Assembly: GCF_000172795.2 (NCBI RefSeq)
Contig: NZ_CP020947.1
Span: 4,357,001-4,421,000 of the forward strand
Direction: 5' to 3'
DNA: 64,000 nucleotides
From: Rhizobium sp. CIAT894
Lineage (GTDB): Bacteria > Pseudomonadota > Alphaproteobacteria > Rhizobiales > Rhizobiaceae
Part shown: piece after piece, positions 1-55,085 of the stretch
Numbering within the stretch: position 1 is the stretch's first letter
Layout of the letters: every line of letters starts with the position of its first letter
Position numbers and translations under genes: made by a program
The notes under the pieces: generated by a model
The model's input: the letters and a program-made list of their open reading frames with translations, nothing else
Database searches by the model: none
What the model was told of the DNA's origin: nothing

Positions 1-1
1 G

Positions 2-70
2 ACCTTCATCCACGGGCCGCGCTCCGGCCTGAGCTCGACGGCAATCCGCAATGGCGCGTCGGACAGTTAG
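2..70 (+). CDS. nadD: NadD, nicotinate-nucleotide adenylyltransferase (3' end only)
   Basis: Only the last 22 codons are in the window. They read TFIHGPR, then SSTAIR, and end at TAG. The SST-x-IR element near the C-terminus is the hallmark of bacterial NadD, which adenylates nicotinate mononucleotide in NAD synthesis, and alphaproteobacterial NadD commonly has a FIHGPR stretch just before it. Context agrees, because nadD usually sits just upstream of rsfS in Rhizobiales and rsfS is found at 4.2 kb here, separated by the mod genes. The stop codon lies in the outer arm of the repeat at 68-340. With so few residues the call rests on the motif and the gene order. Confidence 0.65.
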   Translation, partial: TFIHGPRSGLSSTAIRNGASDS

Positions 71-361: not shown

Positions 362-485
362 GTTGAAAACGAGAAAGCCCGACGGGGGAGGATCCGTCGG
401 GCTTATAAACTCGATCGACAACTGGGAGGAGGAGTGTTGCCGACCCTGTCGAACGGCTATGGGAGGAGGAGAAAGCCGTTTCGAT
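362..485 (-). ncRNA. alpha-r14 / cuckoo-type trans-acting sRNA with three anti-Shine-Dalgarno loops
   Basis: Read on the minus strand, the segment forms consecutive hairpins whose loops carry CUCCUCCUCCC (complement of 461-471 and of 424-434) and a shorter CCUCCCCC in the terminator loop (384-391). The first stem pairs 474-480 with 452-458. The last pairs 394-404 with 375-385 and is followed by a U-rich tail, as in a Rho-independent terminator. Upstream is a good alphaproteobacterial promoter: CTTCAC at 520-515, a 17-nt spacer, then TAAAAC at 497-492, which predicts a start near 485 and an RNA of about 120 nt. Repeated CCUCCUCCC in hairpin loops defines the alpha-r14 family (S. meliloti Smr14C2/NfeR1) and the wider cuckoo RNAs, which pair with ribosome-binding sites of mRNAs. 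The exact ends are inferred. Confidence 0.82.
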
Positions 486-491
486 GAGTAT

Positions 492-520
492 GTTTTATCA
501 GATTCCGCACGAAGGTGAAG
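492..520 (-). promoter_or_regulatory. Sigma-70 promoter of the sRNA
   Basis: On the minus strand the -35 element is CTTCAC and the -10 element is TAAAAC, separated by 17 nt and placed about 7 nt before the expected RNA start. The rhizobial consensus is CTTGAC-N17-CTATAT. Confidence 0.6.
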
Positions 521-730
521 ATTGATTGTTGCATTGCAGCAATGCATCGATTGCAAGCCTGCCCGGAAATATTGCATCGGAAATGGCGTTTTTATCAGCA
601 CGAATCATCGGTGCATGGCGCCGGCTCCGGGAGCCTTGCGCTTTGCAGAATGCCCGCCGGATATTCCTGCCCAAGAGATCCCGTTTCTTATCCAAGCCAT
701 GCGCATCGAGAATGCGACGCAGAATCCCTG

Positions 731-818: not shown

Positions 819-1610
819 ATGCAGAACCGCCGCCAATGGATGAAACTGGCAACCGCCGCGATATCGGCCCTGTGGCTTGGCGCCGCAGCGTTTGCAGCGC
901 CGGCCGCCGCAGCCGAAAAGCTCACCGTCTTTGCGGCGGCGAGCCTCAAGGATGCGCTCGATGCCGCCAATGCCGCCTGGACCAAGGAAAGCGGCAAGGA
1001 AGCCGTCGCCTCCTATGCGGCGAGCGGAGCGCTGGCCAAACAGATCGAAAACGCGGCCCCCGCCGATATTTTCATCTCGGCCGACCGCGACTGGATGGAT
1101 TACGTCGCCAAGAAGAACCTGATCAAGGCCGACAGCCGTTCGGATCTGCTTGGCAACCGTATCGTGCTCGTTGCAGAAAAGGACAAGGCCAAGCCGGTCG
1201 AGATCAAGCAGGATTTCGATCTCGCTGGTTTGCTGGGTGACGGCAAGCTTGCCATGGGTGAACCGAAATCGGTTCCGGCAGGCAAATACGGCATGGCCGC
1301 GCTGGAAAAACTCGGCGTCTGGAAATCGGTGGAAACCAAGATCGCCGGCGCCGAAAGCGTCCGCGCGGCACTCGCCCTCGTCTCCCGCGGCGAAGCTCCC
1401 TATGGCATCGTCTACCAGACCGATGCCGCCGCCGATAAGGGTGTCGCCGTCGTCGGCACATTCCCGGCCGATTCCCATCCGCCGATCATCTATCCGATCG
1501 CCATCCTGGCTTCGAGCAAGAACCCGGATGCATCAGCCTATCTCGACTTCCTGAAATCCGACAAGGCAGCCGCTTTCTTCACGGCGCAGGGTTTCACCAT
1601 TCTGAAGTGA
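819..1610 (+). CDS. modA: ModA, periplasmic molybdate-binding protein
   Basis: This 263-residue protein is the solute-binding component of the high-affinity molybdate ABC importer. Residues 1-33 form a signal peptide with an Ala-rich cleavage region. The mature protein opens with LTVFAAASLKDAL, the strongly conserved ModA N-terminus that contributes to the oxyanion site. Further ModA-like segments are the AASGALAKQI region and PADIFISADRDWMDY. A good ribosome site (GGGGAAG) precedes the ATG. It begins the modABC cluster, but a 286-bp gap holding a RIME-like repeat separates it from modB. Confidence 0.96.
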   Translation: MQNRRQWMKLATAAISALWLGAAAFAAPAAAAEKLTVFAAASLKDALDAANAAWTKESGKEAVASYAASGALAKQIENAAPADIFISADRDWMDYVAKKNLIKADSRSDLLGNRIVLVAEKDKAKPVEIKQDFDLAGLLGDGKLAMGEPKSVPAGKYGMAALEKLGVWKSVETKIAGAESVRAALALVSRGEAPYGIVYQTDAAADKGVAVVGTFPADSHPPIIYPIAILASSKNPDASAYLDFLKSDKAAAFFTAQGFTILK

Positions 1611-25721: not shown

Positions 25722-26990
25722 TCACGCCCTCAGCGCCTGCGCCGGCGATTGCCGGTAGGCGAGCACCGCCGGCAGCGCGGCGAGCAGTGCGGCAAAGGCG
25801 AGCAGCACCCCTGCAAGTCCGCCATCTTCGCGAGCAAAGCCGACGGGCATGGCGATGCCGCTCGTTTGCGAGAACATGCCGGACAAGCCCAGCGCCGCGG
25901 CAAATCCAAGCCCGAATCCGAGCGCGATCCCAACTGACACGAGCGCGAAGAATTCCAACCAGACGATGCTGAAGATCGCACGTCGTGGGGCGCCGAAGGC
26001 CCTCAATGCCCCGATCTGGCGGCGGCGCTGACCGATATGGATGACCGTGACCAACACCAGCGAGGCTGCGACGAGAGCCTGCGCGCCGGAAGCGACCGCG
26101 ACGAGGATCTGCTTGGCGTCGCCGAGCGTGGCGTAGAGATTGGTCAGCACCTCGCCGGGGAAGACGGCGACGGTATTGCCGCTGCGATAGTCCTGCCGCA
26201 GCTTGTAGGCATCGGCAATCGTCTTCGGCTTGACGAGGATGGCGGGAAGGCCGGGCACGTCCGCGCTCCAGGTCTCGTTGATCGCAGCACCGGGGTCGAT
26301 TTCGCCGTGATGCTCGTGATGCTCATGCGCATCGTGATCGGCGCCCGCCGGTTCATGATCGTGGCCAGCCTCCTCATGCTCCTCCTCCCCAAGACCATGA
26401 ATATGCCAGACGGCCTGAATCGGCACGAGAATGGCCCGGTCCCAAGCCGTCCCGGTCGGCCGCAGGCGGCCGGCGACATGATAGACCAGTTCGGTATGGG
26501 TCTCGCCGCCTTCTTCCGGCAGACCGTGCATCGGCTTGATCTCGCTGCCAAGCGGCAGCTTGACGGCCGAGCCGATCACCGCCTCTCCCTCGCGGGCGAA
26601 AACCTTGCCCTCGGCAAAGCCGCCGGACAGCTTCTCCGCCAACCTTACCGTCGTGCCGACGATCGGATAGCCGGAGAAAGAGTCGCCGAAGCCGATCGGC
26701 GCAGCCCAGTCGACGCGGGAATCGGCAGCAAGCCTGGCCAGCACCTCGCCCGGTATCAGCGGTAAAGGCGAGGGCTGCAGGAAGACGGAGGAGAGCACGA
26801 GCTGCGTCTCGCTGCCACCGGCGCCGATAACGAGATCGAACTTGTCGGCGGCGCGGGCGCTGCCGAGACGAAGCGCCCGCTCCTGCAGCACGACGGACAC
26901 ACCGAGCGCCGTCGCAAGCGCCACCAGCAGCACCACCACCAGCGACCCCGCCCAGAGGCGGCGAAGATCGGAAAGGATGAAGCGGATCAT
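25722..26990 (-). CDS. FtsX/MacB-type ABC transporter permease with a His-rich loop
   Basis: This 422-residue protein has one N-terminal membrane helix (LVVVLLVALATALGVSVVL), a long extracytoplasmic domain and three C-terminal helices, the FtsX/MacB topology. The extracytoplasmic part contains a His/Glu/Asp-rich stretch at about residues 197-233 (11 His in about 37 residues, including EHHEHHGEID), a likely metal-binding loop. The start overlaps the upstream ATPase stop. Such permeases usually move lipoproteins or peptides, or transmit mechanical force, rather than import ions. A metal-linked role is inferred from the loop. Confidence 0.86.
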   Translation of the reverse strand: MIRFILSDLRRLWAGSLVVVLLVALATALGVSVVLQERALRLGSARAADKFDLVIGAGGSETQLVLSSVFLQPSPLPLIPGEVLARLAADSRVDWAAPIGFGDSFSGYPIVGTTVRLAEKLSGGFAEGKVFAREGEAVIGSAVKLPLGSEIKPMHGLPEEGGETHTELVYHVAGRLRPTGTAWDRAILVPIQAVWHIHGLGEEEHEEAGHDHEPAGADHDAHEHHEHHGEIDPGAAINETWSADVPGLPAILVKPKTIADAYKLRQDYRSGNTVAVFPGEVLTNLYATLGDAKQILVAVASGAQALVAASLVLVTVIHIGQRRRQIGALRAFGAPRRAIFSIVWLEFFALVSVGIALGFGLGFAAALGLSGMFSQTSGIAMPVGFAREDGGLAGVLLAFAALLAALPAVLAYRQSPAQALRA

Positions 26991-53092: not shown

Positions 53093-55003
53093 TCACATCG
53101 GCAGAGAGCCGAAACCGCGCTTGCGCAGCGCCTCGGCGATCTCTTCCAAAATCGCCGGATCATCAATGGTTGCAGGCATTTTCCAGGGTATGCCGTCGGC
53201 GATTTTCTGCATCGTGCCGCGCAGGATTTTACCCGAGCGTGTTTTCGGCAATCGGTTAACGGTGATGGCCGTTTTGAAGGCGGCGACAGGGCCGATCGAT
53301 TCGCGAATCATCGCCACGACCTCTGATTCGATCACCGCCGTTTCACGGGAAACATGTCGTTTCAGCACCAGGAAACCGCAGGGCGCCTGTCCTTTCAGCA
53401 TATCGTTCACACCGATGACCGCGCATTCGGCAACATCGGGATGGCGCGCGCAGACCTCCTCCATCGCTCCGGTCGAGAGCCGATGACCGGCGCAATTGAT
53501 GATGTCGTCGGTGCGCGACATGATGAAGAGGTAGCCGTCCTCGTCGACATAGCCGGCGTCGGCCGTTTTGTAATAACCGGGAAACTCGTCGAGATAAGCA
53601 GAGCGGAAACGATCGTCCGCGTTCCACAGCGTCGGCAGACAGCCCGGCGGCAGCGGCAGCTTCACGACGATATTGCCGAGCGTTCCTGCCTCGATCGGAT
53701 GGCCGGCATCGTCAAGCACCGTGATGTCGTAACCGGGCATCGGCAGCGCCGGCGAACCGTGCTTGACAGGAAGGGCGCCGAGGCCGAGCGGATTGGCGGC
53801 GATCGGCCAGCCGGTCTCCGTCTGCCACCAGTGATCGATGACGGGTATGGCGAGCATGCGCTCCGCCCATTTCAACGTCTCCGGATCCGCCCTTTCGCCG
53901 GCGAGAAACAGCGCTCGGAAATCCGGCATCGGATATTTGCGAAGCAGTTCACCGTCGCCATCCTCGCGGCGAATGGCGCGGAATGCCGTCGGCGCCGTGA
54001 AGAGTACCCGCACCCGATATTCCGAAACGATCCGCCAGAACGCGCCGGCATCCGGAGTGCCGACCGGTTTTCCCTCGAAGATCAGGGTGGTCACACCTGC
54101 GATCAGCGGGGCATAAACGATATAGGAATGGCCGACGACCCAGCCGATATCCGATGCCGTCCAGAACACCTCACCCGGCTTCAAGCCGTAAATATTCCGC
54201 ATCGACCAGTTGAGCGCGACCATATGGCCGCCATTGTCGCGCACGACGCCCTTCGGCTGGCCCGTGGTGCCGGAGGTGTAGAGAATGTAGAGCGGATCGG
54301 TCGCCTCGACCGAGACGCAGGCGATCTCGGCGCCGCGATGCTGCGCCACCGCGGCGTCGAAATCCTGATCGCGGCCGCTGACGAGATCGGCCCGGAGCTC
54401 CGGCCGCTGCAGCACCAGACAGCGTTCCGGCTTCGAACGCGCCATCTCGATCGCCTGGTCGACCAGAGGCTTGTAGGCGACGATGCGGCCGGGTTCGAGC
54501 CCGCAGCTGGCGGTGATCACCAGCTTCGCGGCACAATCGTCGATGCGGGCAGCCAGTTCGCTGGCGGCAAAGCCACCGAAGACGACGGAGTGAACCGCAC
54601 CGATGCGGGCGCAGGCAAGCATCGAGAACACCGCCTGTGGCACCATCGGCATATAGAGGATGACGCGATCGCCTCTGCCGATGCCGAGATCAACAAGCGT
54701 CGCGGCGATGGCCTTCACCTCGTCGAGCACCTCGCCATAGGTGAAACGGCGCTTCTCGCCGGTCATTGCGCTGTCGAAGAGGATCGCCGTCTCGCCGCCG
54801 CGCCCGGCGATGACATGCCGGTCCAGACAATTGTGACAACTATTGGTTTCCGCCCCCTCGAACCACCGACCGTAGACGCCGGCATCCGGCGAAAAAATCC
54901 GCTCCGGCGGTTTGAACCAGTCGATATCGGCGGCTGCGTCGCGCCAGAAGGCCTCGGGATCGCGCTCCCAGGCCGCATAGACCTGATGATAGCCGTACTG
55001 CAT
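53093..55003 (-). CDS. prpE: PrpE-like propionyl-CoA synthetase (acyl-CoA ligase)
   Basis: This 636-residue AMP-forming ligase is closest to the PrpE group. It has YILYTSGTTGQPKGVVRDNGGH, IDHWWQTETGWPI, and the diagnostic YKTADAGYVDEDGYLFIMSRTDD followed by INCAGHRLSTGAMEE. The C-terminal [14 protein letters not shown] holds the conserved Lys. A parS-like site lies within the coding region at 53339-53354. The ATG at 55003 has GGGGAGGAG upstream. Confidence 0.88.
   Translation of the reverse strand: MQYGYHQVYAAWERDPEAFWRDAAADIDWFKPPERIFSPDAGVYGRWFEGAETNSCHNCLDRHVIAGRGGETAILFDSAMTGEKRRFTYGEVLDEVKAIAATLVDLGIGRGDRVILYMPMVPQAVFSMLACARIGAVHSVVFGGFAASELAARIDDCAAKLVITASCGLEPGRIVAYKPLVDQAIEMARSKPERCLVLQRPELRADLVSGRDQDFDAAVAQHRGAEIACVSVEATDPLYILYTSGTTGQPKGVVRDNGGHMVALNWSMRNIYGLKPGEVFWTASDIGWVVGHSYIVYAPLIAGVTTLIFEGKPVGTPDAGAFWRIVSEYRVRVLFTAPTAFRAIRREDGDGELLRKYPMPDFRALFLAGERADPETLKWAERMLAIPVIDHWWQTETGWPIAANPLGLGALPVKHGSPALPMPGYDITVLDDAGHPIEAGTLGNIVVKLPLPPGCLPTLWNADDRFRSAYLDEFPGYYKTADAGYVDEDGYLFIMSRTDDIINCAGHRLSTGAMEEVCARHPDVAECAVIGVNDMLKGQAPCGFLVLKRHVSRETAVIESEVVAMIRESIGPVAAFKTAITVNRLPKTRSGKILRGTMQKIADGIPWKMPATIDDPAILEEIAEALRKRGFGSLPM
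53339..53354. other. parS-like site within prpE
   Basis: CGTTTCACGGGAAACA matches TGTTTCACGTGAAACA at 14 of 16 positions. The coding strand reads His-Val-Ser-Arg-Glu-Thr here. The mismatch in the centre (CACGGG) may weaken ParB binding. Confidence 0.5.
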
Positions 55004-55085
55004 CTGCTCCTCCCCAGGATATGCAAACCTCGATCTTAACCTAGGCGGAGGAGAGGAGAACAGGAAGCCCGACCAAAGCAGCGTA

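Follow-up and report, generated by a model that had tools for sequence, protein, structure and literature searches.

The closest described counterpart of the small RNA (sRNA) studied here is NfeR1 (SmrC14/SmelC397) of S. meliloti, an RNA of about 120 nt with several copies per genome and three hairpins whose loops carry redundant anti-Shine-Dalgarno (anti-SD) motifs, and with predicted targets that are mostly transporters (PMC7143759 and PMC10746234). The original prediction for the present locus had described the NfeR1 loops and transporter targets in the same terms, in agreement with both sources. According to PMC10746234, NfeR1 is activated by LsrB and repressed by NtrC, silences ntrB, and influences both nodulation and the nitrogen metabolism of S. 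meliloti. We compared NfeR1 and other described RNAs with a single sRNA gene located between nadD and modA near the start of a 64-kb stretch of DNA (hereafter the window, meaning that whole stretch; the gene is called the window copy). The window copy shares with NfeR1 its approximate length, its three anti-SD-loop hairpins, and its occurrence as one of several genomic copies, as well as a putative promoter of its own with an LsrB-type box and an imperfect NtrC-type site at nearly equal spacing. It is set apart from NfeR1 by its locus (nadD/modA rather than SMc02051/tig), by its place outside the trmFO-tig group of a tree, and by a third motif that is shortened relative to the published description.

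Several other RNAs share some of these traits. The cuckoo RNAs CcsR1-4 of Rhodobacter sphaeroides also consist of repeated CCUCCUCCC-type hairpins and are stress-linked, but they are cut from a transcript shared with the DUF1127 gene ccaF1 (PMC10253847), whereas the window copy has its own promoter region. A motif search found no DUF1127-like peptide within 330 nt upstream of the window copy (locus L003), and an origin from a DUF1127 operon of the CIN1 or CcsR type was rejected on this ground. Elsewhere, ar14-type copies do lie shortly downstream of DUF1127-like ORFs, found by motif search and named by eye (L004, L033, L097, L100, L105, L108, L110, L111, L113, and L114), which is the arrangement described for CcaF1-CcsR. 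AbcR1 and AbcR2 direct anti-SD motifs against ABC transporter mRNAs (PMC7143759), and the AbcR1 promoter has an LsrB site (PMC10746234), but both belong to a different sRNA family (ar15), and ar14 is the sole Rfam family above its cut-off anywhere in the 64-kb window. Finally, SmelA075 and SmelA099, with three and four hairpins, respectively, are built of modular hairpins with the same loop motif (PMC3927594, section 2.7); they occupy other loci, and the four-hairpin form resembles, by eye, two further ar14 copies of the source genome (L004 and L005) rather than the window copy. These two (C5:408760-408883 and C4:146085-146211, respectively) appear by eye to have a fourth anti-SD-like hairpin before the three of the Rfam model.

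The nadD-modA locus holds a genuine copy of the known rhizobial sRNA family ar14. Positions 489-370 of the minus strand match the ar14 model (RF02344) over its whole length (model positions 1-123 of 123) with 108.3 bits and an E value of 4.5e-19, against a curated Rfam cut-off of 58.8 bits. For the predicted RNA (485 to 370), a fold of three hairpins was obtained, with a minimum free energy of -47.6 kcal/mol (z -5.65), and none of 200 shuffled sequences was equally stable. The RNA, its elements, and its flanking genes are as follows:

1..70, plus strand: 3' end of nadD, convergent flanking gene (Pfam cytidylyltransferase-like; stop codon at 68-70)
370..489, minus strand: ar14 family sRNA gene, Rfam span (full-length RF02344 match and the fold)
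375..404, minus strand: terminator-like hairpin 3 with interrupted U tail (fold; 3 of 11 pairs changed on both sides)
386..392, minus strand: shortened anti-SD motif 3, UCCUCCC, in the terminator loop (Rfam alignment and fold)
413..445, minus strand: hairpin 2, stem 445-436 with 422-413 (fold; 4 of 10 pairs changed on both sides)
424..434, minus strand: anti-SD motif 2, CUCCUCCUCCC, in loop 2 (invariant except for its first base in 37 loci)
449..484, minus strand: hairpin 1, stem 484-475 with 457-449 (fold; 4 of 9 pairs changed on both sides, 94.6% of cells paired in 37 loci)
461..471, minus strand: anti-SD motif 1, CUCCUCCUCCC, in loop 1 (invariant across the 37-locus alignment)
819..1610, plus strand: modA, divergent flanking gene (Pfam solute-binding domain; start at 819)

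A repeated motif in successive hairpin loops of the minus strand had been predicted, and CTCCTCCTCCC is indeed found at 471-461 and 434-424, both within loops of the predicted fold. The window contains three matches to CTCCTCCTCCC in total, compared to 0.03 expected from shuffles; the third lies on the plus strand at 26379-26389, away from the sRNA. The expectation of a terminator hairpin with a third motif loop was borne out only in part: a terminator-like hairpin is present at 404-375, but its loop reads AUCCUCCC, so that the third motif is cut to UCCUCCC. Consequently, CCUCCUCCC is unpaired and complete in loops 1 and 2 of the window copy, and loop 3 exposes only UCCUCCC. The full CUCCUCCC is present in the third loop at 23 of 37 loci and is shorter in the window copy and 13 others.

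These 37 loci comprise the window and 36 other genomes of the genus, and their alignment argues for a selected RNA structure. Base changes on both sides occurred in 11 of 30 pairs, spread over all three stems, and 98.2% of 1110 alignment cells were standard pairs; neither value was reached in any of 500 shuffles. A further covariation measure, the number of additional pair types, was equalled by 10 of 500 shuffles. These counts are inflated by the relatedness of the loci, and one of the aligned sequences itself supplied the structure, but controls in which the pairing partner was slid by 1-3 columns were still far lower (19-49% paired). The loop motifs stay invariant while the stems vary. Together, the Rfam score and this covariation bear out the membership in ar14 that had been proposed from the sequence.

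It had also been stated that no coding frame exists here. Two ORFs do cross the RNA, namely a GTG-initiated one of 87 codons (601-338, minus strand) and a TTG-initiated one of 51 codons (363-518, plus strand), but neither strand has a frame that stays open throughout the 37 loci (26 of 37 at best), and the lengths vary by 1-4 nt among them. A coding role for the region was rejected, as the frames are not conserved over the 37 loci.

The names nadD and modA were assigned by eye, with Pfam domains in line with both. A search of 36 other genomes of the genus found an ar14 locus at the corresponding place in every one; including the window, nadD is the neighbour in 37 of 37 loci and modA in 36 of 37, the exception being L064, where modA is absent from the stretch read. 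Within the family, 121 genomes were searched for nadD. The 30 best-matching genomes from other genera were then searched for ar14, with the places of both compared by hand. All 30 (28 genera) contained ar14, adjoining nadD in none, and modA did not follow within about 2.5 kb behind nadD in any of 16 of those genomes. The nadD-sRNA-modA order thus looks like an arrangement of the genus. A pattern scan of named genomes gave at least 81 matches in at least 80 stretches; among the matches listed, 19 had both genes near, 4 had nadD only, and 58 had neither, with two of these 58 coming from unrelated phyla, presumably by chance. Listed matches with both genes near included R. tropici, R. phaseoli, R. 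esperanzae, and R. chutanense.

The gap between the nadD match and the sRNA is 308 bases in the window, compared to 33-141 in the other 36 loci. A 273-bp repeat element lies between nadD and the sRNA at 68-340. Its inverted ends span 33 bp each and are 97% complementary, two palindromes lie inside it, and its first three bases are the TAG stop codon of nadD. One more full-length copy of the element (94%) and pieces of it are found elsewhere in the genome.

The source genome has seven ar14 matches, six above the cut-off, and each of the 37 genus genomes has 3 to 9. NfeR1 of S. meliloti is located between SMc02051 and tig (table in PMC2780559); the window copy, sited between nadD and modA, does not share this locus and is thus a paralog of NfeR1 rather than its positional ortholog. 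The copy of the source genome in the NfeR1-like neighbourhood is instead C1:1931534-1931652, between genes with GIDA (trmFO), DUF2157, and trigger-factor domains (Pfam). Neither this copy nor the tig-locus copies of four other genus genomes (L018, L030, L032, and L034) has an LsrB-type box. Some tig-locus copies of other genera do have it, which was the reason to consider a recent move of a tig-locus copy to nadD-modA. This move was not supported: in a tree of 69 hand-picked rows and 134 columns, with most forks unresolved, the 22 trmFO-tig rows formed one group (97/91) with the window copy outside. The 16 nadD rows need two changes on the same tree, and one of them (L048) stands beside the tig group (90/80), so the nadD copies may have arisen once or more than once. 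As a separate observation, several other genera have two or three ar14 copies in tandem at the trmFO-tig locus.

Upstream of the RNA, putative control elements were read from the minus strand:

492..497, minus strand: -10-like TAAAAC (TAnAAC conserved in the 37-locus alignment)
515..520, minus strand: -35-like CTTCAC, 17 nt upstream of the -10-like element (alignment)
531..545, minus strand: palindromic core GCATTGCTGCAATGC upstream of the promoter (near-invariant in 37 loci; also in own-genome copy L001)
542..555, minus strand: LsrB-type box TGCA-N6-GCAT (exact here; motif as published in PMC10746234)
584..600, minus strand: NtrC-type site TGC-N11-CCA, one mismatch to TGC-N11-GCA (exact at the corresponding place in 19 of 37 loci)

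Over the 37 loci, this region contains GCATTGCTGCA(A/T)TGC with few changes, a -35-like TTcac or TTtat, and, after 17 nt in most, TAnAAC. The predicted promoter with 17-nt spacing is readable as CTTCAC-N17-TAAAAC, with like elements recurring in the alignment, but a scan of 330-830 for TTGACA/TATAAT found no E. coli consensus promoter, an E. coli-type promoter was rejected accordingly, and the -35/-10-like elements are poor sigma-70 matches. The -10 of NfeR1 was published as CTATAT (PMC10746234), in contrast to TAAAAC in the window copy. The LsrB-type box was exact at the corresponding place in 14 of 37 loci and had one mismatch in 17, counts that have no control places beside them and in which the right half of the box falls in the conserved core. 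For the NtrC-type site, TGC-N11-GCA (within 1 nt) was exact at the corresponding place in 19 of 37 loci, one base off in 3 (including the window copy), and two or more off in 15, compared to exact matches in 0-1 of 37 at each of nine other places of the upstream region. A repeat of this count over further loci entered some copies twice, in registers 3 nt apart; its totals were set aside and only individual rows were drawn on. The published nfeR1 motifs begin at -116 (NtrC, TGC-N11-GCA) and -72 (LsrB, TGCA-N6-GCAT) according to PMC10746234, and the predicted NtrC-type site starts 45 nt upstream of the LsrB-type box here vs 44 as published. The 5' end of the sRNA probably lies near 484-485; with this end set at 484, from the -10-like element and to fit, the NtrC-type site falls at -116 to -100. 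By analogy with nfeR1 and its similar spacing, the LsrB-type box would activate this promoter and the NtrC-type site would repress it, which makes nitrogen limitation or stress the probable conditions of sRNA expression. The original prediction had included neither these regulator-type sites nor the paralogy with NfeR1.

With two exposed loops carrying the full anti-SD motif and a third carrying a shortened one, either full loop could pair with GGGAGGAG-type ribosome-binding sites, and such pairing would prevent the translation of numerous mRNAs, for the most part those of importers (solute-binding proteins). The pattern GGGAGGAG-N2-10-ATG occurs at 61 sites in the genome, compared to 9 for the reversed pattern and 27 for a rearranged version. 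Behind the 61 sites, all of which were read, are 44 different ORFs of at least 60 aa, and 14 of these encode importer parts by Pfam: SBP_bac_5 and Peripla_BP_4 (3 each, one Peripla_BP_4 gene showing its domain only after a longer read), SBP_bac_1/8 (2), and Peripla_BP_6, TctC, BPD_transp_1, BPD_transp_2, ABC_tran, and AA_permease (1 each). One ORF that looked binding-protein-like by eye (L172) had no Pfam match and was left out of this count. None of 24 control ORFs behind AAGGAGAW encoded an importer part and one encoded an HlyD-type efflux part. The control set covers the first 30 of 134 such sites, and these 30 all fall within the initial 1.5 Mb of the chromosome. Restricting the targets to the chromosome left 6 of 25 importer parts vs 0 of 24 (two-sided p 0.022). 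Because GGGAGGAG is in any case a strong ribosome-binding site, this enrichment is consistent with the proposed targeting rather than proof of it. The ntrB gene of the source genome pairs with the sRNA at -12.3 kcal/mol, a value equalled or beaten by 6 of 45 background ORFs of the window, which were called mechanically and do not include modA. Duplex energies of 13 genes chosen by the pattern were strong by selection and were not used as evidence. A candidate target within the window is found at 55001-55014 (minus strand), where GGGAGGAG precedes, by three bases, the ATG of a long ORF of the AMP-binding (acyl-CoA synthetase-like) type.

We infer transcription, regulators, and silencing effect from NfeR1, and the targets are likewise predicted. 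The sRNA very probably silences nutrient-transporter mRNAs by pairing with their ribosome-binding sites. Overall, we have good confidence in reading 489-370 of the minus strand as a free-standing, terminator-ended, trans-acting ar14 sRNA, paralogous to NfeR1, that blocks mainly importer mRNAs.

Other readings of the locus differ in how much of this evidence they can accommodate. That the hairpins represent no more than a terminator of nadD working in both directions, with loops arising by chance, is hardly credible: hairpin 3 is terminator-like and, as noted, lies close behind nadD in the other 36 loci, but termination does not involve the two further covarying hairpins, the invariant loop motifs, or the conserved upstream region. 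It is also improbable that the sRNA is a local regulator of modA, tied to molybdate uptake through divergent transcription or pairing. The constancy of modA as divergent neighbour would fit such a link, but the sRNA ends 330 bases from the modA start codon without overlap, the modA start region pairs weakly with it (-10.3 kcal/mol for the best duplex), and a palindromic TATAT box at 731-753, seen by eye, suggests separate control of modA. As modA does not follow nadD within about 2.5 kb in the 16 genomes read from other genera, common descent within the genus may be enough to explain the neighbourhood. We rejected modA as a special pairing partner given its weak pairing, and most likely the adjoining gene is not a special target; the earlier caution that its position may be incidental thus holds for base pairing, but the position is not random, being common to the genus genomes searched.

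A less remote, though still unlikely, alternative is that the window copy is a structurally preserved but poorly expressed paralog that adds little while another copy does the work. It is one of the seven matches in its genome, its third motif is truncated, and its NtrC-type site is imperfect; moreover, only one of the six S. meliloti ar14 copies was reliably detected by northern blot (PMC7143759), so that a paralog such as this may be silent. However, locus, promoter motifs, and stems have been kept across the genus with compensatory changes, and a silent relic would be expected to lose these. Within the reading of a working trans-acting sRNA, we tentatively raise a narrower idea, which we regard as somewhat doubtful: in Rhizobium, the LsrB/NtrC-controlled role of NfeR1 may reside not at the tig-locus copy but be shared by the nadD-modA copy and a copy near C1:491 kb, with the nadD-modA copy acting as a genus-specific nitrogen-status sRNA set apart from that sibling by its shortened third loop and altered core promoter. 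The sibling (C1:491167-491289) adjoins an alpha/beta-hydrolase gene (DUF900) and has the exact core and the LsrB-type box, and its NtrC-type site reads TGC-N11-GCG, one mismatch from the published motif. Should the nadD-modA paralog be the working counterpart of NfeR1 in Rhizobium, a knock-out picked by NfeR1 synteny would be aimed at the wrong copy, and sets of several siblings that share their loops but differ in their promoters would offer a simple system to study sRNA redundancy.

The ar14 family is already described, and what is new here is the description of one nadD-modA copy with nitrogen-type control sites; its family, structure, covariation, synteny, and conserved upstream motifs are direct observations. 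Among the papers searched, none joins nadD, modA, sRNA, and Rhizobium, although Reinkensmeier and Giegerich 2015 (cuckoo family) or the promoter alignment in the supplement of PMC10746234 may already list the locus; in the tiling-array paper on R. etli (PMC2881028), nadD, modA, and smrC14 are absent from the main text.

Two further palindromic features accompany modA. The box at 731-753 upstream of the gene reads CGGTTATATTTTCCTGGATATAT, and a search with a relaxed pattern recovers a box of this kind at 9 of the 37 loci; we presume that it resembles a molybdate-regulator site. The intergenic stretch that separates modA from the following mod gene contains, by eye, a palindromic repeat (CCCTCACCCTAACCCTCTCCCCG...) at 1690-1850.
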